DNA of 40,534 nucleotides from Candidatus Limadaptatus stercoripullorum (GCA_018713795.1 DVOE01000057.1:1-40534), one strand, 5' to 3'; positions 2 through 13,238 are shown, numbered from the stretch's first letter. Numbers and translations: made by a program. The notes: generated by a model not told the origin, from the letters alone.

Positions 2-244
2 CGCGGCGAAGTAGTCGCGCGCGTAAAGGCGGAGGGGTTGAGTTTCCTCGAAGGCGTGAGGCTGGGCACCTTCACCGTCCCCGGCGACGGAGACCTTGAT
101 TTCGCGCCGCTGTTCGAACTGCTCGCGGAGAGCGGTTACGAGGGGTGGATGATCGTCGAAGCGGAGCAGGATCCCGCGATCGCCGATCCGCTGGAGTACG
201 CCATAAAGGCGCGCAAGTACATAAAAAAGACGGCGGGCATCTGA
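2..244 (+). CDS. iolE: myo-inosose-2 dehydratase IolE, C-terminal part
   Basis: The gene enters from the left edge and only its last 80 codons are present. IolE dehydrates 2-keto-myo-inositol to 3D-trihydroxycyclohexane-1,2-dione, the second step of inositol catabolism, in the cytoplasm. The visible part carries the family's C-terminal signature: [20 protein letters not shown], then [14 protein letters not shown] and [12 protein letters not shown], which closely match known IolE C-termini of the TIM-barrel xylose isomerase/AP-endonuclease-2 fold. The frame is open from base 2 to the TGA at 242-244. iolG follows 31 bases later, as expected for an iol operon. Confidence is high despite truncation because the VPGDGD...VEAEQDP block is diagnostic. 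Confidence 0.88.
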
Positions 245-275: not shown

Positions 276-1289
276 ATGCTGAACATAGGTATCATCGGTG
301 CGGGACGCATCGGTAAAGTGCATTTACAGTCGGTCACGAGGTATGTGACCGACGCGAAAGTCATCGCCCTCGCTGATCCCTTCATGAACGCGGAGACCGA
401 GGAATGGGCGCGCTCGCTGGGCGTCGGGAAACTCACCCGCGACTACAAGGAGATCCTCTCCGATCCCGAGGTGGACGCGGTGTTCATCTGCTCGTCCACG
501 GACACCCATTCCGCCATCTCCCTCGAGGCGATCGCGGCGGGCAAACACATCTTCTGCGAAAAGCCCGTCGATCACGACCTTGGCAAGATCAAGGCGGTCA
601 TGCAGGCGCTCGAGGGGAGCAATGTCAAATATCAGGTCGGGTTCAACAGGCGGTTCGACCACAACTTCGCCGCCGCGCGCGAAGCCGTCGCAAACGGCAG
701 GATAGGCGAACTCGCCGTGCTCAAGATAACTTCCCGCGACCCCGGCGCTCCTCCCGTGGACTACATCAAAGTCAGCGGCGGGATATTCCTCGACATGACC
801 ATACACGACTTCGACATGGTCAGGTTCATCTCGGGCGAAGAGGTCACCGAAGTGTACGCGGCGGGCGGCGTGACCGTGGATCCCGCGATAGGGGAGGCGG
901 GTGACATCGACACCGCGGTGGTGACCCTGCGCCTCGAGAGCGGCGCGCTCGCCGTCATCGACAACTGCCGCCGCGCGAGCTACGGCTACGATCAGCGCCT
1001 GGAAGCCTTCGGCAGCAAGGGGCAGGTCGCCATATCCAACGACACCGCGTCCAGCGCCGTCGTCTCGGACGCGAGCGGCGTCACCGCCGAAAAACCGCTC
1101 TACTTCTTCCTCGAGAGGTATATGCAGGCTTACGCCGCCGAGGTGGAAGCCTTTGTCGCCGCGGTGAGGGACGACACCCCCGTGCCCGTCGGCATAGACG
1201 CGGGTCTGCAGTCCGTGCTCATCGGCGTTGCGGCGAAAAAGTCGCTCGAGCTCGGGCGCCCGGTCAAACTCTCGGAGATCGAGTTCTGA
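276..1289 (+). CDS. iolG: inositol 2-dehydrogenase IolG (Gfo/Idh/MocA family)
   Basis: This 337-residue NAD-dependent dehydrogenase should oxidise myo-inositol to 2-keto-myo-inositol (scyllo-inosose), the first step of inositol breakdown. The N-terminal Rossmann fold begins with GAGRIG (residues 8-13). The EKP motif is at 95-97. The block GGIFLDMTIHDFDM (168-181) supplies the Asp and His that with the EKP lysine form the known catalytic triad (here K96, D173, H177). Length matches the family. The ATG at 276 follows a strong TAAAGGAGG site with good spacing. It sits directly after iolE and ends just before a strong hairpin terminator, so it is the last gene of that operon. A related dehydrogenase acting on another polyol is possible, but the iolE neighbour supports the call. 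Confidence 0.88.
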   Translation: MLNIGIIGAGRIGKVHLQSVTRYVTDAKVIALADPFMNAETEEWARSLGVGKLTRDYKEILSDPEVDAVFICSSTDTHSAISLEAIAAGKHIFCEKPVDHDLGKIKAVMQALEGSNVKYQVGFNRRFDHNFAAAREAVANGRIGELAVLKITSRDPGAPPVDYIKVSGGIFLDMTIHDFDMVRFISGEEVTEVYAAGGVTVDPAIGEAGDIDTAVVTLRLESGALAVIDNCRRASYGYDQRLEAFGSKGQVAISNDTASSAVVSDASGVTAEKPLYFFLERYMQAYAAEVEAFVAAVRDDTPVPVGIDAGLQSVLIGVAAKKSLELGRPVKLSEIEF

Positions 1290-1353: not shown

Positions 1354-2241
1354 TCAGGCGTAAAAGCGGCGGATATACTCCTCAACATCCGCGCGCGTCT
1401 TGTCGAAGGGTCCCGTCTTCTCCATCTTGTAGGACACCGTCGCCGTCGCGATGAGCAGGGCGGAGGGGATATCGCCGTACATCCTCTCGGCGAGATAGGC
1501 GGCGAAGGTCGTGTCGCCGCGCCCCGTCCTGCCCGAGAGATTGCGTGCCTTTATGGGGCAGGTGAAGAACTCCTTGCCGTCGTAGGCGAGCACTTCGGTG
1601 TTGTGGGTTATGAGTATCTCGCGCGCGCCGAGGTCGAAGAGCGCCTTTGCGGCGTCGCGCCTGTCCGAAAGTCCGGTCAGTATCTCCGCTTCGGCGGCGT
1701 CGGTCTTGAGATAGCGGACGGAGGGGAGCACGCGCTTTCTGTCCGCCCAATTCTCGAAGAACATCTCCTTTCCCTCGCCGCCCGAGTGCCTGAGATAGCC
1801 CTGCACATCCACCGCGAGATCGCCGCGGCGCGCGAGCTCGTCGGTCAGCCCCTCCGCGAAGTCGCCGTAGATGAGCCCGCCGAGCTGCCAAATTCCGGCG
1901 GAGATATCGCCGGGGATATCGGCGGGCGTGAAGGGATCGCCCTGCGACAGACATACGCAGCGGCGCTTCTCCTTGTCCTCGGTGAAGTACTTGTTTTCGA
2001 TGGAAGTGGAGCGGGAGGAGGGCAGGCAGACTATGTCCTCGCGGGGGAGGGTGAACACGGACAGTCTGTCCTCGTCGGCGGGGGCGAGTTTGGTCAGCGC
2101 GACCACGCTCCTCCCCAAGGCGTGAGCCGCGGCGGAAGAGTAGACCACGGCGCCGCCCACCTGCACGGTGAGAAGGTCGCGGCAGTCTATGTTGTAGTCG
2201 AGAGACACATGCCCGATGACCGCAAGATCGTAAGTTTTCAT
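1354..2241 (-). CDS. PfkB-family carbohydrate kinase
   Basis: A 295-residue ribokinase-fold protein, predicted to transfer phosphate from ATP to a sugar, cyclitol or nucleoside in the cytoplasm. Seen in the sequence: the N-terminal VIGHVSLDYN strand, the substrate-side GG at 29-30, and the C-terminal motif GRTGRGDTT (237-245), in which D243 is the expected catalytic base. The usual anion-hole sequence is GAGD; here it is GRGD, a noticeable substitution. TDAAEAEILTG (180-190) is the typical central PfkB segment. The ATG at 2241 has a GAGGA-type site upstream on the minus strand. It converges on iolG and diverges from the long catabolic operon. IolC would be an attractive assignment from context, but the protein is shorter than usual IolC, so the substrate is left open. 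Confidence 0.8.
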   Translation of the reverse strand: MKTYDLAVIGHVSLDYNIDCRDLLTVQVGGAVVYSSAAAHALGRSVVALTKLAPADEDRLSVFTLPREDIVCLPSSRSTSIENKYFTEDKEKRRCVCLSQGDPFTPADIPGDISAGIWQLGGLIYGDFAEGLTDELARRGDLAVDVQGYLRHSGGEGKEMFFENWADRKRVLPSVRYLKTDAAEAEILTGLSDRRDAAKALFDLGAREILITHNTEVLAYDGKEFFTCPIKARNLSGRTGRGDTTFAAYLAERMYGDIPSALLIATATVSYKMEKTGPFDKTRADVEEYIRRFYA

Positions 2242-2400: not shown

Positions 2401-2429
2401 TTGCAAAACGCGGCGTTTACCTTTACAAT
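2401..2429 (+). promoter_or_regulatory. predicted sigma-A promoter of the catabolic operon
   Basis: TTGCAA (2401-2406), exactly 17 bases, TACAAT (2424-2429). The expected start near 2436 leaves about 50 bases before the ATG at 2487. It is arranged back to back with the kinase promoter, so one regulator could control both. Confidence 0.6.
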
Positions 2430-2486
2430 ATTCTCAGCGAACTATCGCGCGCGCCCGCGGTGCGGCGCGCATGAGTGAGGGAGAGA

Positions 2487-3773
2487 ATGATCAGGATAGC
2501 GGTGCTGGGTCTCGGCAGCAGAGGCAAGAATTACGGCGGGCATTTGTCCCGCGATCCCGGCGTGCGGATAGTTTCGGTCTGCGACAAATTTCGTGCCAAG
2601 GTGGACAAGGTCAAAAATGCGTGGGGAGTGCCCGATAGCGGTTGCTTCACCGACGACGAGGCTTTTTTCGCGCAGGGCAAGATCGCGGACGCCATGATCA
2701 TCGCCACGCAGGACCGCGACCATTACGGGCACGCCATGCGCGCGCTCGATCTGGGTTACGATCTCATCCTCGAAAAGCCGGTCAGCCCCTTCATCGAGGA
2801 GACGCTCGCGATAGAGAAAAAGGCGTGCGAGAAGGGAGCGAGGGTGCTGGTGTGCCATGTGCTCCGCTACGCGCCCTATTACCGTCGCATAAAGAAGATG
2901 ATAGACAGCGGCGCGCTCGGCGACATCGTGTCCATAAAGCACGACGAAAACATCTCTTATTGGCATTTTGTTCACAGCTATGTCCGCGGCAATTGGCGGC
3001 GGGAGGAGGAGACCTCTCCCATGCTGCTCGCCAAGTGCTGCCATGACATGGACCTGCTTTATTGGTACACCGGCAGCAAGTTCGCGAAGGTGAATTCCTA
3101 CGGCGACCTCAGATATTTCAAGGCGGAGAACGCCCCCGAAGGCAGCGCGGAGAGATGCGCGGACTGTCCGCTCTCCCGCACCTGCATCTACGACGCGCGC
3201 TATCAGTACATAGGGCGCAGGAAGGGGCTCATCTTCAAGAAGAAGTTCCCTTGGGGCACCTATGCTTTCTCGCAGTCGTCCTCCAAAAAGGCTGTCGCCG
3301 AAGCGCTCGAGAGCGGAGAGAAGGGCAGGCTGTTCGGCAGGTGCGTGTTCCGCTGCGACAACGATGTGAACGACAATCAGGCGGTGAATATCGAGTTCGA
3401 AAACGGCGTCAAATGCGTCATGACGGTGACGGCGTTCAACGAGAAGAACCATCGTCACACCGAGATACGCGGCACCAAAGGCGAGCTCATCGCCGACGAC
3501 AGCCACAGCATACTCGAGTACCGTCCCTTCGACGGCAGGAAGCGCCGCATAAGGGTGAATCTCATCCCCGTCATCCGTGGACACTACGGCGGCGATCAGG
3601 GGCTGATGCGCACTGCGTCCGCCATGCTCGCGGGCAAGACCGATCCCGGCATACTCTACACCTGGATAGCCGACACCGTGGAGAGCCACCGCATAGTCGC
3701 GGCGGCGGAGCTTTCGCGGAAAGAGGGCGGCAGGCTTGTGACTTCGGAGGAGATCCCCGACATCGAGAAATGA
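2487..3773 (+). CDS. Gfo/Idh/MocA-family oxidoreductase with a cysteine-rich insertion
   Basis: A 428-residue NAD(P)-dependent dehydrogenase, first gene of the catabolic operon; these enzymes oxidise or reduce sugars, glycosides and cyclitols. The Rossmann motif GLGSRG is at 8-13, EKPV at 96-99 with candidate catalytic K97, and LLAKCCHDMDLL (181-192) supplies the family His/Asp. After the catalytic core comes a CADCPLSRTC segment (224-233) whose three cysteines resemble a small metal site; such an insertion is known in one branch of the family. I chose ATG 2487 because GAGGGAG lies directly upstream; GTG at 2475 would add four residues but has no ribosome site. The stop overlaps the next start (ATGA). 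The substrate cannot be read from the sequence. Confidence 0.82.
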   Translation: MIRIAVLGLGSRGKNYGGHLSRDPGVRIVSVCDKFRAKVDKVKNAWGVPDSGCFTDDEAFFAQGKIADAMIIATQDRDHYGHAMRALDLGYDLILEKPVSPFIEETLAIEKKACEKGARVLVCHVLRYAPYYRRIKKMIDSGALGDIVSIKHDENISYWHFVHSYVRGNWRREEETSPMLLAKCCHDMDLLYWYTGSKFAKVNSYGDLRYFKAENAPEGSAERCADCPLSRTCIYDARYQYIGRRKGLIFKKKFPWGTYAFSQSSSKKAVAEALESGEKGRLFGRCVFRCDNDVNDNQAVNIEFENGVKCVMTVTAFNEKNHRHTEIRGTKGELIADDSHSILEYRPFDGRKRRIRVNLIPVIRGHYGGDQGLMRTASAMLAGKTDPGILYTWIADTVESHRIVAAAELSRKEGGRLVTSEEIPDIEK

Positions 3774-4240
3774 CCTTAGAGCTGCTCCGGAAGACGCTGA
3801 CGGCGACAAATGCCGAAAATCACACTCATCTTTACATCCCGTTCACCGTTCCCGAGGGGATGAAGGAGATACGCGTCTTCATGGAGTACGCCCCCAAGTT
3901 CTTTGACGACAGGGAGAAGAGCCTCGAGATAATACGCGAGGTGCTGGCGCGGGACGCGTGGTACACCTCTTTCACCGAAGAGGAGACGGAGGCGTTCCTG
4001 CCCCTTTGCAATCACATTTCGGTGTCGCTGGATTCGCCGGCGGGGTGGCTCGGGACCGCGCACAGGCACGCGCCCAAGCAGACTTATTTCGTGAACGAGC
4101 GGGATGCGGCGTACGGGTTCAGACCCGCGCCCGCCGAGAGCGGGGAGTGGCGGCTGACGCTTTCGTTTAATTGCGTTGTTACGGGCAGCGTGACTGTGGA
4201 TATAAGGGTGGAGGCGGACGATGAGATATCTCAGATGTGA
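3770..4240 (+). CDS. beta-sandwich protein resembling the N-terminal domain of CehA/McbA hydrolases
   Basis: A 156-residue protein with no signal peptide. Its sequence pattern (IPFTVPEGMKEIRVFMEYAP near residues 23-42, ISVSLDSPAGWLGTAHRHAP in the middle, then GEWRLTLSF near the C-terminus) matches the beta-rich domain that precedes the PHP metal-hydrolase domain in single-chain CehA/McbA-like proteins. Here that domain is its own frame, and the PHP domain starts in another frame 20 bases before this one stops. The start overlaps the upstream stop as ATGA, so it should be translationally coupled. It is probably a partner subunit of the PHP protein. The alternative is that a frameshift or assembly indel has split a single gene. 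Confidence 0.68.
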   Translation: MTLELLRKTLTATNAENHTHLYIPFTVPEGMKEIRVFMEYAPKFFDDREKSLEIIREVLARDAWYTSFTEEETEAFLPLCNHISVSLDSPAGWLGTAHRHAPKQTYFVNERDAAYGFRPAPAESGEWRLTLSFNCVVTGSVTVDIRVEADDEISQM

Positions 4241-5171
4241 GCTGCACACCCACACCGTGTGGAGCGACGGGAGCATGACTCCCGAGGAACTCGCCGCGAA
4301 CGCGGCGGCGCGCGGCTACGACGCGATCGCCCTCACCGACCACAACACCGTGTTCGCCTATCCGAGGGTGCGCGCGGCGGCGGAAAAGCTCGGGCTGACA
4401 GTCGTACCGGGCATCGAATGGACGACATTTTACGGGCACCTCACCGTACTCGGCGGCAGGAGCCCGGTGGACTGGCGGGAGGTGGCTCCCGAGACCGTGA
4501 ACGCGGAGATAGTCCACGCGACGGAGGCGGGGGACGCGGTGGTGCTGTGCCATCCCGCGAGGATAGGCGGCGCGATATGCTGCGGCTGCCACAACGACTT
4601 TGACATCGCGCCAGGGGTGCTCTCGGGCATGGAAGTTTGGAGCAGATACCGCGAGAGCCGCGATCCCGCGAACGCGGAAGCGGAGAGGATGTGGCTGGCG
4701 CGGCTGGATGCGGGCGAAAAGATCGCCGCCGTCTACGGGCTGGATTGGCACCGCATCGAGAAGGGCGATCGGTCCTACGCGGCGACCTATGTGGGCGCGG
4801 ACGCCTGCACCCCGGACGCCATCGTGGAAGGTGTGCGCCGTGGACGCACATATATCTCGGCGGGGGTGGAACTCGACATCCGTCTCACCGCCGGCGGCAG
4901 AGCGTTCGAGCTCGGAGACGGCGTCCCCGAAGGCGAAGTCCGTCTCACGGTCAAGGCGACGCCGAACGCCGACTACGCCCGGGAGTTCGGCGTGGAGATA
5001 GGCGGCATCGAGGTCGCGGGCAGCAGTTTCACGGCGGCTGCGGCTGGCTGCGAACTCGACATTACGGCGCACGCGCGGAAGGGTTACTTTTTCGTCAGGG
5101 TGCGCGGCAGGATAGACGGAGAGGAGAGCGAACTCGCGCTCACTTCGCCGTTTTATACGGAGGGAAGATGA
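4221..5171 (+). CDS. PHP-domain metal-dependent phosphoesterase (CehA/McbA-like)
   Basis: A 316-residue PHP-superfamily hydrolase, expected to bind two or three metal ions and cleave phosphoester bonds, sometimes amides or esters in the CehA/McbA branch. Metal ligands are visible in order: HTHT (9-12), SDG (15-17), TDHN (39-42), E66 in PGIEWT, H73 in GHLTVLGG, H111 in CHPAR, and D175/H177 in GLDWHR. A beta-rich C-terminal region (about 212-316) follows, typical of the branch. A GGTGGAGG ribosome site seven bases before ATG 4221 supports independent initiation inside the end of the previous gene. It overlaps the next start by ATGA. Together with the phosphodiesterase-like neighbour it suggests that the operon handles a phosphorylated compound. 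Confidence 0.85.
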   Translation: MRYLRCELHTHTVWSDGSMTPEELAANAAARGYDAIALTDHNTVFAYPRVRAAAEKLGLTVVPGIEWTTFYGHLTVLGGRSPVDWREVAPETVNAEIVHATEAGDAVVLCHPARIGGAICCGCHNDFDIAPGVLSGMEVWSRYRESRDPANAEAERMWLARLDAGEKIAAVYGLDWHRIEKGDRSYAATYVGADACTPDAIVEGVRRGRTYISAGVELDIRLTAGGRAFELGDGVPEGEVRLTVKATPNADYAREFGVEIGGIEVAGSSFTAAAAGCELDITAHARKGYFFVRVRGRIDGEESELALTSPFYTEGR

Positions 5172-5812
5172 TCATCACGGCACACGGCGGCGCCATGGGT
5201 ACGGGGCGCAACAGCCAAAAATATTTTGAAAGGACGGCGGATTACCGCGCCGACGCGCTCGAGATAGATGTCAGGAGCCGCGGCGATCTGCTTTACATAT
5301 CCCACCTTCCCGCTCTTTTCCCGGGGAAGTGCATACCGCTCGCCCGCGCCTTCGATATGGTGGCGGAGAGCGGACTCATGGTCAACTGCGACATCAAGGA
5401 AAGGCGGCTCGTTAAGCGGGTGCTCGACCTTGCAAAGAGCGCGGGCATAGCGGACAAGGTCTATTTCACGGGGGCGGTTACCCTCGAGGACAGCGACGAC
5501 ATAGACGCGGGCGCGGTGTGGCTCAACGCCTTTAATTTTTCGGAGGTGGGAGTGACTCCCGCGAGCGCGGCGCGCATCAAGGTGATGATAGGCGCGACGG
5601 GCAATCCCGCCTACCGCGGCATCAACATAGACAAGCGCAGGGCGACGGACGAGTTCATGCGCGCGGCGGCTGCCGCGGGGCTTGGCGTGTCCGTGTACAC
5701 GGTGGACGATCCGGCGGAGCAGAGGAGGCTCGCCGCCTTCCGTCCCGACAACATCACCACAAACCGTCCTCTCGAGCTCAGGAGGCTCCTTGAGGCGGAG
5801 GCAGAGAAATAA
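5168..5812 (+). CDS. small glycerophosphodiester phosphodiesterase-like protein
   Basis: A 214-residue TIM-barrel protein related to GDPD enzymes, which hydrolyse glycerophosphodiesters to glycerol 3-phosphate and an alcohol. Features seen: AHGG at 5-8 (canonical AHRG), LEIDVR at 31-36 supplying E32 and D34, H46 where the family has the HD pair, NCDIK at 73-77, and a C-terminal TTNRP typical of the last strand. It departs from the canon: the Arg of HRG is replaced by Gly and the ENT motif after it is missing. No signal peptide, so it is cytoplasmic. It starts within the ATGA overlap with the PHP gene. Substrate could be a phosphorylated glycoside or polyol rather than a lipid headgroup. Activity is probable but not certain given the altered motif. 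Confidence 0.75.
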   Translation: MIITAHGGAMGTGRNSQKYFERTADYRADALEIDVRSRGDLLYISHLPALFPGKCIPLARAFDMVAESGLMVNCDIKERRLVKRVLDLAKSAGIADKVYFTGAVTLEDSDDIDAGAVWLNAFNFSEVGVTPASAARIKVMIGATGNPAYRGINIDKRRATDEFMRAAAAAGLGVSVYTVDDPAEQRRLAAFRPDNITTNRPLELRRLLEAEAEK

Positions 5813-5842
5813 TTGCTGCGGCGACTGCCGCACGGAGGAAAT

Positions 5843-6796
5843 ATGCAGGCAAATGTCAGGATATCGGGTTTCTATGACGAGGTGAGTTCGGATCTCGAGA
5901 CCCAGCTCAAGCTCATGAAAAAGCTCGGCGAGAGCTATATCTGCCCGCGCGGCGTGAACGGCAGGAACATCTCCTCCTACACCGCCGCCGAGTTCGAGAG
6001 GGACATCAAACCCGTGCTCGACTCTTACGGCGCGAAATTCTCGTCCATAGGCTCGCCGATAGGCAAGATAGGGCTTTACGACGACGAGGCGTACGAGAGG
6101 CAGAAGAAGCAGCTCGAGGAACTCATCGGCATATGCAAGCTCATGGACTGCCGTTACATAAGGATGTTCAGCTTCCATGTCGATCCCAAGGGCGACTACT
6201 CGGAGTACAGACCCGTGGTCATGAAGAAACTGAAGGGATTTGCCGAAGTCGCGGCGGGCAGCGGCGTGACCCTCCTGCACGAGAACGAGAAGAAGATCTA
6301 CGGCGACATCTCTTCGCGCTGCCTCGAGATCTACGAGGAGCTCGGCGGCGACGGCTTCGAGCTCGCCTTTGACGCCAGCAACTATATCCAGTGCTCGGAA
6401 GATCCGTGCGAAGCGTATAAGGCGCTCGGCGACAAGTGCGTCTATTTCCACATAAAGGACTGTTCGCCCGAGAAGGTGGAGGTGCCTCTGGGCATGGGCG
6501 ACGGCGGCTACAAAGAGATGCTTTCCGACCTCATCCTGCGCCGCGGCTACGACGGATTTTTCACTCTCGAGCCGCACACGGCGAAGTACGCGGTGCTCAA
6601 AAACGCGTTCAACATCCTTTTCCCGATCACGGCGCTCGTCCCGCCCGTCAAGGAGTTCCACAAGGTGTTCAGGCGCATCGACGAGGCATACGGCATTTCG
6701 AGATTCGGCAAGGTCAGCCGCGAGCAGGTGTTCGTGTGGCAGTACGAAGCCCTGAAAAAGATGCTCGCCGAGATCGCGGCGGAAGCCGGCGAATGA
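5843..6796 (+). CDS. sugar phosphate isomerase/epimerase-type TIM barrel (AP-endonuclease-2 family)
   Basis: A 317-residue cytoplasmic protein of the xylose isomerase-like TIM-barrel family, which includes IolE, sugar epimerases and some ketoglycoside-cleaving enzymes. The metal-binding pattern is visible: LLHENEKK in the middle, AFDASNYIQ, YFHIKDCSP, and a C-terminal FFTLEPH, supplying the expected Glu, Asp, His and Glu. I chose ATG 5843 because GGAGG lies just upstream; the TTG at 5813 has no ribosome site. It follows the GDPD-like gene by 30 bases in the operon. Members of this family often act on 2-keto or 3-keto intermediates made by Gfo/Idh/MocA dehydrogenases, which fits the first gene of the operon. 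Exact reaction unknown. Confidence 0.78.
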   Translation: MQANVRISGFYDEVSSDLETQLKLMKKLGESYICPRGVNGRNISSYTAAEFERDIKPVLDSYGAKFSSIGSPIGKIGLYDDEAYERQKKQLEELIGICKLMDCRYIRMFSFHVDPKGDYSEYRPVVMKKLKGFAEVAAGSGVTLLHENEKKIYGDISSRCLEIYEELGGDGFELAFDASNYIQCSEDPCEAYKALGDKCVYFHIKDCSPEKVEVPLGMGDGGYKEMLSDLILRRGYDGFFTLEPHTAKYAVLKNAFNILFPITALVPPVKEFHKVFRRIDEAYGISRFGKVSREQVFVWQYEALKKMLAEIAAEAGE

Positions 6797-6812
6797 CGGA
6801 GCAAAGGGGGAG

Positions 6813-8747
6813 ATGATGGGAGACAAAAGGGAAGTCAGCTGTCAGGGAGGCAAACTGACCGTCACCGTGCCCTTCCGCGAGAAGGTGTGCTACGACGCGG
6901 GCAACAACCGTATCACGGCGCAGTTCGACGGCAGAGGCGGCATTTCGCGCTATGCGGTCATGAACAAGTTCTCGGTCTTTTCCGCGTTCTACTCCATGTA
7001 CGAGATAGACGGCAGGGCAGTGGGCTGGGACACCGGCAAGAGGGTGATCATGCTTGGAAGAGAGCAGGTGATCTCCTTCTCCGCACCCGAGGCGGACATT
7101 ACGGTGAGCTGTTTTCTGGACGGCGGCTCCAACGCCGTGTTCACCGAGATCGCGGTGTCCGCAAAACGCGCTCTCACCTTCCGCAATGTCATCAACTTCG
7201 GCATAGATTTCGCCTCTTATCTCCAGCAGCTGCTCGCCAACAGGCTGTCGGTCGGCAACCTGCTCAGAGTGGCGGGCGGCGCGATAAGGAATCGCGCGCC
7301 CCGCGTCACCGCGTCGGGAAAGGCGTGCGTGGTCAGGAACGATGTCATGGGCGACTTCTATCTCGACTACGCGCTGGGCGAAGGGGCGGAGCTGCTCGAA
7401 AAGGAACGCAATTTCTACAATCAGTTCGCCTTCGGCGGCAAAGTGGCGGCGGGAGAGAGGAAGGTGTTCCGCTATGTCATAAGCGCCGGCACGCGCACCG
7501 ACTTCACTTACACGGATGTGGCGGCGGCTCTCGAGAGATTTGACGACGCCCGCGCCGAGTGCAGGGCGTACCCCGCCTCCTTCGGCTGCCCCGAAGGATT
7601 GGACGATTTCCACCGCGCCTACTACAATTCTCTCATCAACTGCATTCTTTCGAACTACAAACAGCTCGGCGAATTCAAAGGTTTCCTTGCCGGCATAGTC
7701 TATCAGTTCCCCGCGCGCACCTACTACCGCGACTCCTATTGGACGGTGCTGCCCCTCATGGACCTCCGCCCCGACCTCGTGCGCGATCAGATACTCACCC
7801 TCTGCCGCGGCATAAACGCGCGGACGGGGGAGTGCCCTTCGGCGGTCAAGTTCAATTTCAGGAACTATTGGGGCAACCACTACGATTCCCCGAGCTTTTT
7901 CGCGATCATGGTCTACGACTATGTGGCACACACCGGCGACTTCTCCGTGCTCGACGAAAAGGCGGGCGGGAAGACGGTGCTCAAAGCCGCGCGGCTGGTC
8001 ATGGACAGACTGTCCGCCGAGACCGACGAGACGGGACTTTTGGTCAAAGGCGGCAAGTATAACCGCAGGGACTGGTGCGACAATGTCTTCCGCAGCGGCT
8101 ATGTCACCTACGACGAGGGGCTGTATGCCCGCGCCCTCTATGCGCTCTCCGAACTGCTCCGAGGCAGGGACGACGCGGCGGCGGACAGGTACGCCGCGAT
8201 GTTCGCGAAGGTCAAGGCGTCCATAAACAGGCTGCTCTGGGACGAGGACAAGGGCTGGTTCGTCAACTACCGCGACGGCGAGTTCACCGAGGACAACCTT
8301 TCGGTGGACACCGTGGTCGTCCCCCTCTTCGGACTGACCGACGAGGGCAGGGCGAAGCGTATGCTCTCCGCCATGGAACGCCTGCTCGAGAGCAGATCCA
8401 ACACCGAGCAGCAGGCGGGCGACTTCGGCGTGCTGTCCGTCTGGCCGTTCTACAAGCGCCTCACGGACACCGTGCAGAAATCCACCCTGCCGTACTACTA
8501 CCACAACGGCGGCGACTGGCCCTATCTTTCCGCCATGTACGCCTACGCCAAACTCATGTACGGCATGGACGCGGAGTATCCGCTCACCCGCTGGTTCGAG
8601 TTCAACCTTGCGCGCGGCAACTACACCCCCGTGGAATTTTTCAGCCCCGTGCATCCCGACGGATCGCTGCTCCAGGCGTGGAGCGGAGTGGGCGCGCTGG
8701 CGCTCCGTCACCCCTCGGGCGACTTCTTCAGGAAGAAGCTCAACTGA
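6813..8747 (+). CDS. six-hairpin glycoside hydrolase (amylo-alpha-1,6-glucosidase-like)
   Basis: A 644-residue protein with an N-terminal beta-rich domain (to about residue 230) and an (alpha/alpha)6 barrel. Barrel signatures include TYYRDSYW (D307), then RRDWCDN and YDEGLYARAL, and near the end GGDWPYLSAMYAYAK and VEFFSPVHPDGSLLQAWSG (Q621). QAWS close to the end is characteristic of amylo-alpha-1,6-glucosidase/GH63-like enzymes. No signal peptide is present, so it should cleave an imported oligosaccharide or glycoside in the cytoplasm, in line with the symporter gene that follows. Two adjacent ATGs (6813, 6816) share one GGGGGAG site. The exact GH family and linkage cannot be settled by reading alone. 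Confidence 0.75.
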   Translation: MMGDKREVSCQGGKLTVTVPFREKVCYDAGNNRITAQFDGRGGISRYAVMNKFSVFSAFYSMYEIDGRAVGWDTGKRVIMLGREQVISFSAPEADITVSCFLDGGSNAVFTEIAVSAKRALTFRNVINFGIDFASYLQQLLANRLSVGNLLRVAGGAIRNRAPRVTASGKACVVRNDVMGDFYLDYALGEGAELLEKERNFYNQFAFGGKVAAGERKVFRYVISAGTRTDFTYTDVAAALERFDDARAECRAYPASFGCPEGLDDFHRAYYNSLINCILSNYKQLGEFKGFLAGIVYQFPARTYYRDSYWTVLPLMDLRPDLVRDQILTLCRGINARTGECPSAVKFNFRNYWGNHYDSPSFFAIMVYDYVAHTGDFSVLDEKAGGKTVLKAARLVMDRLSAETDETGLLVKGGKYNRRDWCDNVFRSGYVTYDEGLYARALYALSELLRGRDDAAADRYAAMFAKVKASINRLLWDEDKGWFVNYRDGEFTEDNLSVDTVVVPLFGLTDEGRAKRMLSAMERLLESRSNTEQQAGDFGVLSVWPFYKRLTDTVQKSTLPYYYHNGGDWPYLSAMYAYAKLMYGMDAEYPLTRWFEFNLARGNYTPVEFFSPVHPDGSLLQAWSGVGALALRHPSGDFFRKKLN

Positions 8748-8804
8748 CACAAACAGGCATTTCACCGTGCGAAACGGCGAGATAAAACGGTAAAGGAGAA
8801 AATT

Positions 8805-10532
8805 ATGGCAGCAGAGCTGACCTTGGAAAGCGGCGTTAAGATCACCGTGAGGAAGTACCTTAAACCAAAGGATTACATCACCTTCTCGATGGCGCGTTTC
8901 GCCACCGCAGCCATCACGGGCCTGGTGTCCGGATACCTGCTCATCTTCTACACCTCGGTGCTCGGGATAGACCCGCTCAGCGTCGGGACGATGTTCCTCA
9001 TCTCCAAGATATGGGACGGCGTCAACGACCCCATCATGGGCGTCATCATCGACAAGACGAGGAACAAGATGGGCAAGATGCGTCCCTATCTGCTCTATGG
9101 CGCGGTGCCGTTCGGGCTGGTCATCATAGCGATGTTCCTGCCGCTGGGCAATGTGTTGTCGTCGCTGGGCAAGGTGGTGTTCATGTACGCCTCCTACCTG
9201 CTCTACGACTTCATGAGCACGCTGGTCGGGGTGCCGCTCGACGGGCTTCCCGCCGTCGCTTCGCCGAACTCCGAGGAAAGGGCGAAGATAATCTCGGTCA
9301 GCCGCATAGTCGGTTCGATAGGCGAGCAGTCGGGGCTGGTGCTTTACTCCTTCTTCATCATGTTCATGAACATGAAGACGACCTTCCTGCTCATGGGCAT
9401 CGTCATAGGCGTGCTCGCGCCCGTGTTCATGATCCTCGGCGGCATAAATGTTAAGGAGCGCATCCAACCCATCACCGAAAATGTCAGGGTGCTCGACGGG
9501 TTCAAGTACATGTTCCAAAACAAGCAGTTCCTTGTGCTCATCCTGGGGCTGCTCCTGACATTCTTCCGGAATCTGGTCTCCGCCATGCAGATCTACATGG
9601 TGACCTACATCTACGGCAACGGCTCGCTCAACATCGCCTTCGCCTTGCCGGGAGCCGTGGCGTCCATGATAGGCATGTTGTTCGCGCCATGGCTGAAAAA
9701 GCGGATGGACGCCAAGAAGCTGTTCATCCTCTCGACGCTCGTGCACTCGGCGGTGCTCATCCTCGTCTGGTTGGTGGGCTACGAAGTGCATTGGGGGCTG
9801 ACGGCGGCGCTCATGTTCTTCGCAATGCTGCCCGTCGGCATAATAAATGTCGCCCCGCACCTCATGGTCATCGACACCCTCGACTACTGGGAGGACAAGA
9901 CGGGCAAGCGTCAGGAGGGCATAGCTTTCGCGATAGTCTCGCTGAGGAGCAAGGTCTCGAGCGCCTTCAAGGACTACTTCATGGCGTTCCTGCTCGCGAC
10001 CTTCCTCTTCGCGACCCCGCTGACCAGCGCGGTCAACGATCACAGCCCCTGGCAGCTCCAGACCACTCTCGACGGTCTGTTCATGATGTTCACGCTCATC
10101 CCCGCGGTGCTCAATCCCGTGTGCATCATCCCCTTCCTGTTCTACACCCTTTCGGGCAAGCGCATGGCGGAGATCAACGCCCGCCTCAGCTACAAGCGTA
10201 TGCTCGAGGGGCACGGAGGGGAGTTTGAGGGTCTCGAGAGCGGAGAGGGCAAGACGGTCGGCTGGCTGTCTCTCGAAGATATGCTCCGCACTCCGACGCT
10301 GTTTGCGAAAGTCGGCGCCGAGCCCGGCGAAGTGGGCGGCATGAGCCTCGAACAACTCATCGCCTATCCCGCGTCCGCCGCGGCAGAGAAAGATAACGAA
10401 GAGGAAAAGGAGAGCGGTTTCGTCGCCGCCGAACGCGCGGCGCTGGACGGAGAGCCGCTCACCGATGAGCAGAAGACCGAGGTCGCGGTGAACGAGGCGC
10501 TCGGCGAATACGACGAGGGAGGTGAACTGTGA
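8805..10532 (+). CDS. GPH-family sugar:cation symporter (MFS_2, MelB-like) with a long cytoplasmic tail
   Basis: A 575-residue multi-pass membrane transporter. The glycoside-pentoside-hexuronide family signature is clear at about residues 70-97 (WDGVNDPIMGV, DKTRNKMGKMRPYLL). Hydrophobic segments continue to about residue 450, consistent with 12 helices. The remaining 120 or so residues form a charged, acidic tail not needed for the fold. Expected role: uptake of a glycoside coupled to Na+ or H+. The ATG follows AAAGGAG at normal spacing. It lies after the glycosidase and overlaps the lipoprotein start by one base (TGATG). The tail could be regulatory, as the IIA-like tails of some relatives are, but I do not recognise a IIA domain here. 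Confidence 0.85.
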   Translation: MAAELTLESGVKITVRKYLKPKDYITFSMARFATAAITGLVSGYLLIFYTSVLGIDPLSVGTMFLISKIWDGVNDPIMGVIIDKTRNKMGKMRPYLLYGAVPFGLVIIAMFLPLGNVLSSLGKVVFMYASYLLYDFMSTLVGVPLDGLPAVASPNSEERAKIISVSRIVGSIGEQSGLVLYSFFIMFMNMKTTFLLMGIVIGVLAPVFMILGGINVKERIQPITENVRVLDGFKYMFQNKQFLVLILGLLLTFFRNLVSAMQIYMVTYIYGNGSLNIAFALPGAVASMIGMLFAPWLKKRMDAKKLFILSTLVHSAVLILVWLVGYEVHWGLTAALMFFAMLPVGIINVAPHLMVIDTLDYWEDKTGKRQEGIAFAIVSLRSKVSSAFKDYFMAFLLATFLFATPLTSAVNDHSPWQLQTTLDGLFMMFTLIPAVLNPVCIIPFLFYTLSGKRMAEINARLSYKRMLEGHGGEFEGLESGEGKTVGWLSLEDMLRTPTLFAKVGAEPGEVGGMSLEQLIAYPASAAAEKDNEEEKESGFVAAERAALDGEPLTDEQKTEVAVNEALGEYDEGGEL

Positions 10533-11509
10533 TGAAAAAAGTGCTTCTTGCGGCGGTACTTGTCGTCATCATCGCGCTCGCGCTCGCGGGCTGCAACCCC
10601 ACCCGGGACGAATTCATCCGCGATCTCGACGCCGGCATAACCAAGGCCGGCGGCAGATACGACGAGGTGTACGAGAAGTTCCTTTCCCTCGACCGCTACG
10701 CCTACGACGCCGAGGTCTATCTCGAGGAGATGGCGAACTACGACGCCGAGAAAAGGCGTTTCCCCGACGAAGACAGCGGCGGCAAGAATTGGTACAAGCC
10801 CTCCTTCTCGTACGGTTTCGTCAAGAACGGCGGGGCGGAGTATGTGCGCCTGACCTACACGCCCCATCTCAAAAACGGGGAGGGTTTCTACGAGTCTTAC
10901 GGCGCGGAGGTCTTCTACGAATTCTGGTATGAGGGCGGCGAGCTCAAGCAGATCAAAGTTGACGGAGCCGTGGTCTCCGAGGTGCCTGCGGACAAGAGTG
11001 AGGGCTACGATCTCTTCCGCGAATACTTCACCGTGAACGGCAGCGTGGAGAACATCGCCGCGAGCATCATGGCGGAGTATGCGGACATGGAAGAGAGAAA
11101 GTCGTCCATCGCGGCGGCGAGGGCGGAGGATATCCTCGGCAAACACCTGGTCAATTATCTGACCTACGACTTCCGTCTCCGCGGCAGCGAGGAGTGGCAG
11201 GGCTGGCGCGCCCTTTCCGAGGACGAGAGCGAATCCGCGGTCACGGGCTTCGACGAGGATCTCAGAGTGGACTGGGAACACGCCGACTATATGCGGCTCG
11301 GCAACATGTGCGTGACCGTTCAGAAGGAGAAGATCACCATGATCGAGCTGTACAACGAGATCATAGGCGCCTATCACAAGACCGAAGAGCAGGCGTGGAA
11401 CAACATCTCGGCGGACAACTGGTACGGCGACAGGGTGGAGGCGGACAGCCTCATCCTGACTTTCCGCTATGACGGCAAGGACGGGTCGGTCACCGTGCCC
11501 GCGAAATAA
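10532..11509 (+). CDS. predicted lipoprotein of unknown function, last gene of the catabolic operon
   Basis: A 325-residue protein with a classic lipoprotein signal: MKK, a hydrophobic stretch, and the lipobox ALAGC with the lipidated Cys at 21. The mature part is acidic and rich in Tyr, Glu and Asp, with no solute-binding or enzyme motif I recognise. The ATG at 10532 overlaps the transporter stop and has GGGAGGTG eight bases upstream; the GTG three bases earlier is less well placed. It should be anchored to the outer face of the membrane. Coupling to the symporter suggests a role with uptake or extracellular capture, but this is inference. A terminator follows 19 bases after the stop. Confidence 0.7.
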   Translation: MKKVLLAAVLVVIIALALAGCNPTRDEFIRDLDAGITKAGGRYDEVYEKFLSLDRYAYDAEVYLEEMANYDAEKRRFPDEDSGGKNWYKPSFSYGFVKNGGAEYVRLTYTPHLKNGEGFYESYGAEVFYEFWYEGGELKQIKVDGAVVSEVPADKSEGYDLFREYFTVNGSVENIAASIMAEYADMEERKSSIAAARAEDILGKHLVNYLTYDFRLRGSEEWQGWRALSEDESESAVTGFDEDLRVDWEHADYMRLGNMCVTVQKEKITMIELYNEIIGAYHKTEEQAWNNISADNWYGDRVEADSLILTFRYDGKDGSVTVPAK

Positions 11510-11527
11510 AAGCGTCTCCCGAACGAC

Positions 11528-11559
11528 GCCCCGCCCCTCGCGGCGGGGCTTTTCTTTTT
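11528..11559 (+). terminator. intrinsic terminator of the catabolic operon
   Basis: Perfect 8-bp GC stem (GCCCCGCC with GGCGGGGC), 6-base loop, then TTTTCTTTTT. It closes the operon that starts at about 2436. Confidence 0.9.
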
Positions 11560-11651: not shown

Positions 11652-11680
11652 TTGATTTCGGCGGCGGACCGTGTTATAAT
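11652..11680 (+). promoter_or_regulatory. sigma-A promoter before yifB
   Basis: TTGATT (11652-11657), 17-base spacer, perfect TATAAT (11675-11680). Transcription would start near 11687, with a short AT-rich leader before AGGGGG and the ATG at 11712. Confidence 0.8.
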
Positions 11681-11711: not shown

Positions 11712-13238
11712 ATGCTCGCTTGTGTCAAAAGTTTCGCCCTCGAAGGGCTGAGCGGCTACGCGGTGTCCGTCGAAGTGGACATCGGGAGCGGTCTGCCGAG
11801 CGTGGAGACGGTGGGTCTGGCGTCCACCGCCACCAAGGAATCCAAGGAGCGCGTCAGAGCAGCCATACGCAACAGCGGCTACCCCTATCCTTCGGGGCGC
11901 ATAACCGTCAATCTCGCTCCCGCCGACACCAAGAAAGAGGGCGCTTCCCTCGACCTGCCCATAGCGGTGGGCTTGCTCGTGTGCGCGGAAGCGGTCGCGG
12001 GGAACCTTTACAAGGACTATGTGATGATAGGCGAGCTGGCTCTCGACGGGTCGCTGAGGTCGGTGAACGGCGTCATGCCGCTGCTCATCTCGGCGATGCA
12101 GCAGGGAGAGAAAAAGTTCATCGTCCCCGCCGCAAACGCCAAAGAGGCGAGCTACATCGAGGGCATAGAAGTGCAGGCGTTCGCGACTCTTCACGAGACG
12201 GTGGATTTTCTTTCGGGAGGGGCGCACGAGCCCGTGCCCGTGACAGGCTACCGCTCTCGCGGCGGAACGAGCGCGTACGGCGTGGATATGTCGGATGTCA
12301 AGGGGCAGACCGCGGCAAAACGCGCCATAGAGATCGCCGTCGCCGGCGGACACAACATCCTCATGTGCGGCGTGCCGGGAGCGGGCAAGACCATGCTCGC
12401 CAAGTGCATCCCCACCATAATGCCGGATATGTCGTTTGAAGAGGCGGTGGAAGTGACCAAAATACATTCGGTGGCGGGGGTGCTGGATCCCGCCGTCGGC
12501 ATAGTGGAAGCGCGCCCGTTCAGGACGCCGCATCACACCACCACCGTGCCCGCGCTCGTGGGCGGAGGCGCAAAGGCGCGTCCCGGCGAGGTCAGCCTCG
12601 CGCATCACGGCGTGCTCTTCCTCGACGAGATGCCGGAGTACAACCGCCGCACCCTCGAGACGCTGCGCCAGCCCCTCGAAGACAAGAAGGTGACCGTCGC
12701 GCGTGTCATGCGGTCGGTGGAATATCCCGCCGATTTCATGCTGGTCGCGAGCATGAACCCCTGCACCTGCGGCAATTACGGGTCGCGCACGCAGGTCTGC
12801 CGTTGCTCGGCGGCGCAGATACACTCATATATGTCCAAGCTCAGCGGTCCGCTGCTCGACAGGATAGATCTTCGCATCGAAGTGGACGGCGTGGAGTACG
12901 CCGAACTGCGCGGCGAGGGCGGGGGAGAGACCTCCGCGGTGGTCAAGGAGAGGGTGGAAAAGGCGCGCGCCATCCAGCGCGAACGCTACCGCGATTCCGC
13001 CACCGCCACCAATGCCGCAATGACCGCCAAAGAGCTGGAGAAGTACTGCGCTCTCGACGCCGACGGGGAGAGACTGCTCGCCAAGGCGTTCGACAAAATG
13101 GGCTTGACGGCGCGCGGCGCCACGCGTATACTCAAAGTCGCGCGCACCATCGCCGACCTTGCGGGGAGCGAGAGCGTGCTGCCCGCGCATGTGGCGGAGG
13201 CGATCCGCTACCGCGGCATCGAGAGGAAATATATCTGA
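11712..13238 (+). CDS. yifB: YifB/ComM-family Mg-chelatase-like AAA+ ATPase
   Basis: A 508-residue protein with the full family architecture: N-terminal Lon-like domain (about 20-170, with GLPSVETVGLAS and NLAPADTKKEGASLDLPIA), then the AAA+ domain with Walker A GVPGAGKTML (220-229) and Walker B VLFLDEMPE near 305, the MNPCTCG cysteine cluster near 355, and a C-terminal helical part. The related ComM is a branch-migration helicase that promotes recombination during natural transformation. It directly precedes dprA with a one-base overlap, a pairing that fits DNA uptake and recombination. Start ATG with AGGGGG upstream. Confidence 0.93.
   Translation: MLACVKSFALEGLSGYAVSVEVDIGSGLPSVETVGLASTATKESKERVRAAIRNSGYPYPSGRITVNLAPADTKKEGASLDLPIAVGLLVCAEAVAGNLYKDYVMIGELALDGSLRSVNGVMPLLISAMQQGEKKFIVPAANAKEASYIEGIEVQAFATLHETVDFLSGGAHEPVPVTGYRSRGGTSAYGVDMSDVKGQTAAKRAIEIAVAGGHNILMCGVPGAGKTMLAKCIPTIMPDMSFEEAVEVTKIHSVAGVLDPAVGIVEARPFRTPHHTTTVPALVGGGAKARPGEVSLAHHGVLFLDEMPEYNRRTLETLRQPLEDKKVTVARVMRSVEYPADFMLVASMNPCTCGNYGSRTQVCRCSAAQIHSYMSKLSGPLLDRIDLRIEVDGVEYAELRGEGGGETSAVVKERVEKARAIQRERYRDSATATNAAMTAKELEKYCALDADGERLLAKAFDKMGLTARGATRILKVARTIADLAGSESVLPAHVAEAIRYRGIERKYI

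Follow-up and report, generated by a model that had tools for sequence, protein, structure and literature searches.

A conserved eight-gene operon of Candidatus Limadaptatus stercoripullorum and its possible part in the breakdown of mannose-glucuronate-inositol glycoconjugates

We have analyzed a stretch of 40,534 bases from Candidatus Limadaptatus stercoripullorum (GCA_018713795.1, DVOE01000057.1), hereafter the window. It is an entire contig (C48) of an assembly of 1.44 Mb over 95 contigs, and what we say of the rest of this genome comes from sequence searches. The window carries an operon of eight genes. On balance, its sequence and that of its relatives suggest that it is half of a conserved two-locus pathway for glycoconjugates of mannose (Man), glucuronate (GlcA) and inositol (Ins), probably the heads of plant glycosyl inositol phosphorylceramides (GIPCs). 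In relatives a mannosidase arm, a uronate arm and an inositol arm are all present and linked to the core of the operon. GIPCs are the main sphingolipids of the plant plasma membrane. The head of those of Brassicaceae is Man-alpha1,4-GlcA-alpha1,2-Ins (PMC12498067), and a phospholipase C frees phosphorylated inositol glycans from GIPC (PMC11496612). Because enzymes of the types expected for alpha-mannose, glucuronate, inositol and phosphate are combined here, the GIPC head (Man-alpha1,4-GlcA-alpha1,2-myo-inositol-1-phosphate) would be the best match.

Layout of the operon and conservation in relatives

The eight open reading frames (ORFs) lie on the + strand between 2475 and 11509, with spacings of -20 to +57 bases (start/end junctions at 3770/3773, 4221/4240, 5168/5171, 5812/5843, 6796/6813, 8747/8805 and 10529/10532). 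Protein families were assigned with Pfam and NCBIfam, and the features are as follows.

2401..2429, + strand: sigma-70-like promoter, TTGCAA-N17-TACAAT (consensus match only)
2475..3773, + strand: Gfo1, Gfo/Idh/MocA oxidoreductase with a Cys-rich insertion (PF01408/PF22725)
3770..4240, + strand: NtermD, N-terminal domain of a CehA/McbA-type PHP protein on a separate ORF (fusion in relatives; conserved alignment)
4221..5171, + strand: PHP-family metallohydrolase of the CehA/McbA type (NF038032)
5168..5812, + strand: GDPD-like TIM-barrel protein with AH[GST]G replacing HRG (PF03009)
5843..6796, + strand: xylose-isomerase-like TIM barrel of the epimerase/hydratase/eliminase class (PF01261; AlphaFold pLDDT 90)
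6813..8747, + strand: (alpha/alpha)6 glycosidase-like protein, closest to GH94/GH116 folds (GDE_C, Trehalase, MGH1-like and GH94 matches; Foldseek)
8805..10532, + strand: GPH (glycoside-pentoside-hexuronide):cation symporter (TIGR00792)
10529..11509, + strand: small lipoprotein-like protein that closes the operon (no family matched)
11528..11549, + strand: intrinsic terminator, hairpin with 8 G-C pairs and then a T run

The terminator hairpin is G+C-rich, is followed by TTTTCTTTTT and had the highest count of G-C pairs among all the candidates of the scan. Promoter-like sites were modestly enriched across the scan (10 observed vs 3.4 expected). The strongest sigma-70-like promoter of the scanned region (10/12) is located downstream of the operon, at 11652-11680, and precedes a comM-like gene (11712-13238) that is followed by dprA-like and topA-like genes.

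A preliminary description of this DNA had seen in it one operon of eight genes between a promoter-like site and a terminator, and both the ORFs and the promoter and terminator scans bear this out. The same description took the eight genes for a complete pathway, and this did not hold. The block of the relatives adds two Gfo/Idh genes, a GH38 and glucuronate genes, and most of these added parts sit on another contig of the own genome, so that the operon is not complete by itself. Lack of conservation beyond close relatives had been named there as one result that would refute its reading; we found instead a marker distributed over the order and a conserved gene order.

Specifically, the gene set recurs at 50-85% identity in G001, which belongs to the same genus, and in G017, from another genus of the same family, and it is partly present in G047 of another family. 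Of 396 genomes of the order, 65 (from 19 of 142 genera) matched an alignment-based profile of the GDPD-like protein, our marker, and five of these matches were weak. A single GDPD-like sequence compared to the GTDB contigs had given only two remote matches where the alignment-based search succeeded, and a class-wide search beyond the order returned only weak GDPD-like matches with no operon alongside. The GDPD-like proteins are 38-68% identical to the window copy and deeply diverged, with long tree branches; the three copies of family f1 form one clade. In family f5 the order of the genes is fixed as Gfo1-NtermD-PHP-GDPD-Gfo2-TIM-Gfo3-GH-GPH, that is, with two Gfo/Idh genes (Gfo2 and Gfo3) beyond the set of the window.

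The loci of family f24 (L068, L069, L074, L080, L087 and L100) are a variant for a different substrate. They contain NtermD-PHP-GDPD(-Gfo2-GH) beside a GH20, a citrate synthase and very large Big_3 lipoproteins, together with a glutamate-1-semialdehyde-type aminotransferase, an FGGY kinase and two class II aldolases. The GH20 hexosaminidase would fit heads of the N-acetylhexosamine type, although such linkages are not known GH20 substrates.

Glucuronate, mannose and inositol genes around the core

In 13 sampled loci from families f1, f5 and f13 (L022, L063, L066, L067, L070, L072, L073, L077, L078, L088, L096, L097 and L098) the genes kdgA-kdgK-uxaC-uxuA(-uxuB), identified by NCBIfam, are directly beside the core, nearly always on its strand and mostly directly upstream. 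L134 has them as well, in the region that immediately precedes the core. Since uxaC and uxuA are common in f1 genomes without the core as well, only the linkage, and not the presence, of these genes was used as evidence. Besides, the additional oxidoreductases found in relatives share homology with a glucuronide-acting enzyme. Gfo3 of G017 matched PDB 8tdi ('Glucuronide-3-dehydrogenase') with 336 bits, the next-best solved structure reaching 102, and for Gfo2 of the same genome the values were 214 and 118 bits. The genome of the window carries most of these parts outside the operon: contig C61 contains uxaC-uxuA-uxuB-kdgA-kdgK and then a Gfo3 orthologue (65%), and the counterpart of this cluster in G001 additionally contains a Gfo2 relative (49%). 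What other genomes keep in a single block is therefore split here into two halves, one in the window operon and the other on C61.

The GH38 alpha-mannosidase linked to the block passes the cut-offs of all four GH38 Pfam domains (PF01074, PF09261, PF07748 and PF17677). When we took the best-scoring GH38 proteins (at least 1170 bits), the marker was present in 25 of 25 genomes, within 20 kb in 17 of them; this count excludes the window's own broken-contig case, and the remaining pairs of GH38 and marker are on different contigs. An alpha-galactosidase-like (Melibiase) protein adjoins the GH38 in G017 (L112:14034-15794) and is perhaps there for heads carrying further sugars.

The inositol arm begins in the window itself, upstream of the operon.

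2..241, + strand: 3' end of iolE, inosose dehydratase (TIGR04379), where the contig is broken
276..1289, + strand: iolG, inositol 2-dehydrogenase (TIGR04380, 466 bits, cut-off 355)
1354..2241, - strand: divergent PfkB-family kinase belonging to the system (weak PfkB match; orthologues near the GDPD-like gene or iolG)

Another contig of the own genome, C70, contains GH38-iolC-iolB-iolD together with the rest of iolE. The TIGR04379 matches are C70:6-656 and C48:2-232, and the end of C70 and the start of the window have 21 exact bases in common. Most likely, to judge from these ends, both contigs adjoin, as the corresponding regions do in G001. In the window iolG comes directly after iolE (241-276), and the iolA found between them in G001 and G017 is missing.

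The iol operon and the GH38 also adjoin the core in G001, in G017 from another genus and in G654 from another family. Across the order sample, 50 genomes had both the marker and iolE, 10 the marker alone, 15 iolE alone and 321 neither. Within family f1, iolE was found in 3/3 genomes with the marker vs 1/33 of the others (p 6e-4, if the sample covered all 36 f1 genomes). By co-occurrence with iolE and by adjacency in these three genomes, the link to inositol catabolism that the preliminary description had proposed is real.

Next to the GDPD-like gene in L076, L082, L099 and L132 are orthologues of the PfkB kinase (56-65% identity), and in G017 one is next to iolG. We considered whether the kinase could be IolC and rejected it, the true IolC being a different gene. 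In G539 a PI-PLC-like gene is located two genes upstream of PfkB-GDPD-PfkB, and in G666 the GDPD gene adjoins an IolJ-like aldolase with the same start as the class II aldolase next to iolC in G519; both neighbors point to inositol. A row of genes at L132:12482-16515 reads PI-PLC-like, metallo-beta-lactamase-fold gene, PfkB, GDPD-like, PfkB. G519 also has a Cas9-like protein, with neighboring cas1/cas2-like ORFs, close to its iol cluster (L117:1590-4862).

The proteins of the operon

Gfo1 probably has its true start at the ATG at 2487, which matches the start of the orthologues. Its Cys-rich insertion is an unusual feature for Gfo/Idh enzymes. C228, C231, C237, C290 and C294 were invariant among 15 homologues and are perhaps a structural metal site.

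NtermD, with 156 amino acids, matched no Pfam family. Its ORF, which in the window overlaps that of the PHP protein by 20 bases, is separate in many relatives too. In L063, L067 and L097 a single PHP ORF of ~496 amino acids spans both in one frame. By this fusion NtermD is the N-terminal domain of PHP, split off as an ORF and without a function apart from it. The PHP protein itself matched NF038032 with 196 bits (cut-off 80), and its metal ligands H9, H11, D16, H41, E66, H111, D175 and H177 are kept in 26-28 of 28 sequences.

The GDPD-like protein departs from its family at the HR motif. We compared 35 homologues, 34 of them readable at this motif; the His was found in all 34 and the phosphate-binding Arg in none, being replaced by G (26), S (5) or T (3). 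The metal and His residues E32, D34, H46, D75 and K77 are conserved, so that the E-x-D ligands and the second His are in place. Judging from these residues the protein may not be a classical phosphodiesterase. The phosphodiester hydrolysis assigned to it in the preliminary description is not established, since the phosphate-binding Arg of true GDPDs is absent from every homologue.

The four-residue metal site of the xylose-isomerase-like TIM barrel (E147, D177, H203 and E243) was invariant among 11 sequences. The nearest folds, as found by Foldseek on the AlphaFold model, were UlaE, IolI, the 3-keto-glucal hydratase AtHYD, YcjR and IolE. Known 3-keto-glycoside eliminases have a catalytic His, His134 in AtOGE and His143 in CGE (PMC10628242). 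The TIM barrel has Glu149 where that His is expected, and we rejected its assignment as a proven eliminase; with the His that known eliminases require absent, the enzyme is as likely to act as a hydratase or an epimerase.

For the glycosidase-like protein the AlphaFold model was weak (pLDDT 62), and an exact family name was dropped in favor of a GH94/GH116-like fold class only. The symporter scored 254.5 bits against TIGR00792 (cut-off 231.35). The lipoprotein-like protein at the end of the operon has identities of 53% in G001, 50% in G017 and 24% in G047.

Proposed route, alternatives and known systems

From the protein families, the operon, the conserved set, the linkage of the arms and the homology of Gfo2 and Gfo3 to glucuronide-3-dehydrogenase, all of them read in the sequences, we infer the substrate, the order of steps and the role of each hydrolase given here, as well as any substrate of the PfkB kinase. 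Once freed, the inositol (phospho)glycan would enter through the GPH symporter and lose its mannose to the GH38 alpha-mannosidase, with the phosphate or phosphodiester being removed by the PHP protein (with NtermD) and/or the GDPD-like protein. Gfo/Idh enzymes of the glucuronide-3-dehydrogenase type would oxidize the glucuronosyl residue and open the way to the GlcA-inositol bond, whose cleavage could be completed by the TIM-barrel enzyme and/or by the GH94-like glycosidase; the TIM-barrel enzyme would take part in hydrating or re-reducing the product of the opened bond. Glucuronate would then follow the UxaC-UxuB-UxuA-KdgK-KdgA route and inositol that of IolG-E-D-B-C.

Several observations weigh against a pathway for GIPC heads. 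The genes of the loci read include no recognizable secreted phospholipase or ceramidase for GIPC; there is only the PI-PLC-like gene of G539. iolE is missing from 10 of 60 marker genomes, and G039 and G472 have none despite a near-full operon and 98% completeness. The co-occurrence of marker and iolE (Fisher p ~1e-39) is not corrected for kinship, and most cases of linkage fall in one family (f5). In the genome of the window, with Gfo3 present, a clear Gfo2 orthologue was not found. The TIM barrel has E147-N148-E149 in 11/11 sequences, with no eliminase His at +2 from the beta5 metal ligand. Finally, CehA/McbA enzymes are best known for carbamate hydrolysis, not for phosphatase action.

Some of these data would suit a pathway for glucuronides in general that is based on C3 oxidation, acting on plant phenolic glucuronides, glucuronoxylan fragments or host conjugates and delivering its products into the Uxa/Uxu/Kdg route, with the inositol genes and the mannosidase as neighbors through co-regulation only. 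The match of Gfo2 and Gfo3 to glucuronide-3-dehydrogenase agrees with it, the commonest neighbors are uxu/kdg genes, glucuronides are carried by GPH symporters (TIGR00792) and the operon is found without iolE in G039 and G472. However, such a pathway leaves the PHP and GDPD-like proteins unexplained, and accounts neither for the PfkB-GDPD pairs near inositol-type genes (PI-PLC-like, IolJ-like aldolase) nor for the strong co-occurrence with iolE and the linked GH38. We consider it rather unlikely. Less probable still is a cyclitol derivative or glycerophospho-glycoside free of uronic acid (galactinol, inositol glycosides or glycerophosphoinositol), as put forward in the preliminary description, in spite of the iol genes adjacent to the core in the window, G001, G017 and G654 and of the PfkB-GDPD pairs without uronate genes in L076, L082, L099 and L132. 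What was seen there of an inositol link stands, but the glucuronate and mannose arms were overlooked. Galactinol and glycerophosphoinositol contain neither uronic acid nor mannose, and therefore explain only half of the conserved set; the glucuronate genes, Gfo2/Gfo3 and GH38 are left over, and the HR motif of GDPDs is absent from the GDPD-like protein.

The region could also be a plant-sugar island where separate inositol, uronate and mannoside genes were gathered, each for its own free substrate. Its composition does depend on the family (f24 has GH20, FGGY kinase, class II aldolases and aminotransferase instead), and unlinked uxu and iol clusters also exist. Against this, the gene order is fixed over deep divergence, genes overlap within one operon and the marker and iolE are paired in family f1, all of which makes an island of this kind very improbable.

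A pathway for GIPC heads would, if true, be the first bacterial route for their breakdown found in the searchable literature, where we found none consuming the head and enzymes that free it are described. Several orphan families would gain a function from it, among them this PfkB, the split CehA/McbA PHP and the GDPD-like (AHGG) and GH94-like proteins, and glucuronosyl-inositol would join the known targets of 3-keto glycoside chemistry. The named set of candidate genes makes GIPC-head catabolism testable.

Among known systems, the fungal GIPC phospholipase C (PMC11496612) and GIPC-PLD have in common with this locus the GIPC head as proposed substrate class; they only free the head, whereas this locus would catabolize it. 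All five enzymes of the hexuronate (Ashwell) pathway, UxaC-UxuB-UxuA-KdgK-KdgA, are found in the block of the relatives and elsewhere in the genome of the window, but are joined here to a module that would act upstream of free glucuronate. In the same way, IolG, IolE, IolD and IolC of the myo-inositol operon (iolG-E-D-B-C) pass the NCBIfam cut-offs and the operon adjoins the core in three genomes, although it lies outside the eight genes and is unlinked in most f5 genomes. The PHP protein resembles the CehA/McbA metallohydrolases (NF038032) in sequence family and metal ligands, and differs in that the N-terminal domain is on its own overlapping gene. A further parallel is found in the operons for glycoside 3-oxidation and beta-elimination, such as GlycDH-OGE-HYD of A. 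tumefaciens, Dgp/CGE for puerarin and that for levoglucosan of Bacillus smithii (PMC10628242). Gfo/Idh oxidoreductases and a metal-binding TIM-barrel sugar isomerase-like protein are found there, as here, in one catabolic operon, and Gfo2 and Gfo3 of the relatives are homologues of a glucuronide-3-dehydrogenase of the Gfo/Idh family. The operon described here differs in having a single TIM barrel, which lacks the catalytic His of eliminases, where those operons have two, in the addition of PHP, GDPD-like and glycosidase-like proteins, and in its link to uronate, inositol and mannosidase genes.

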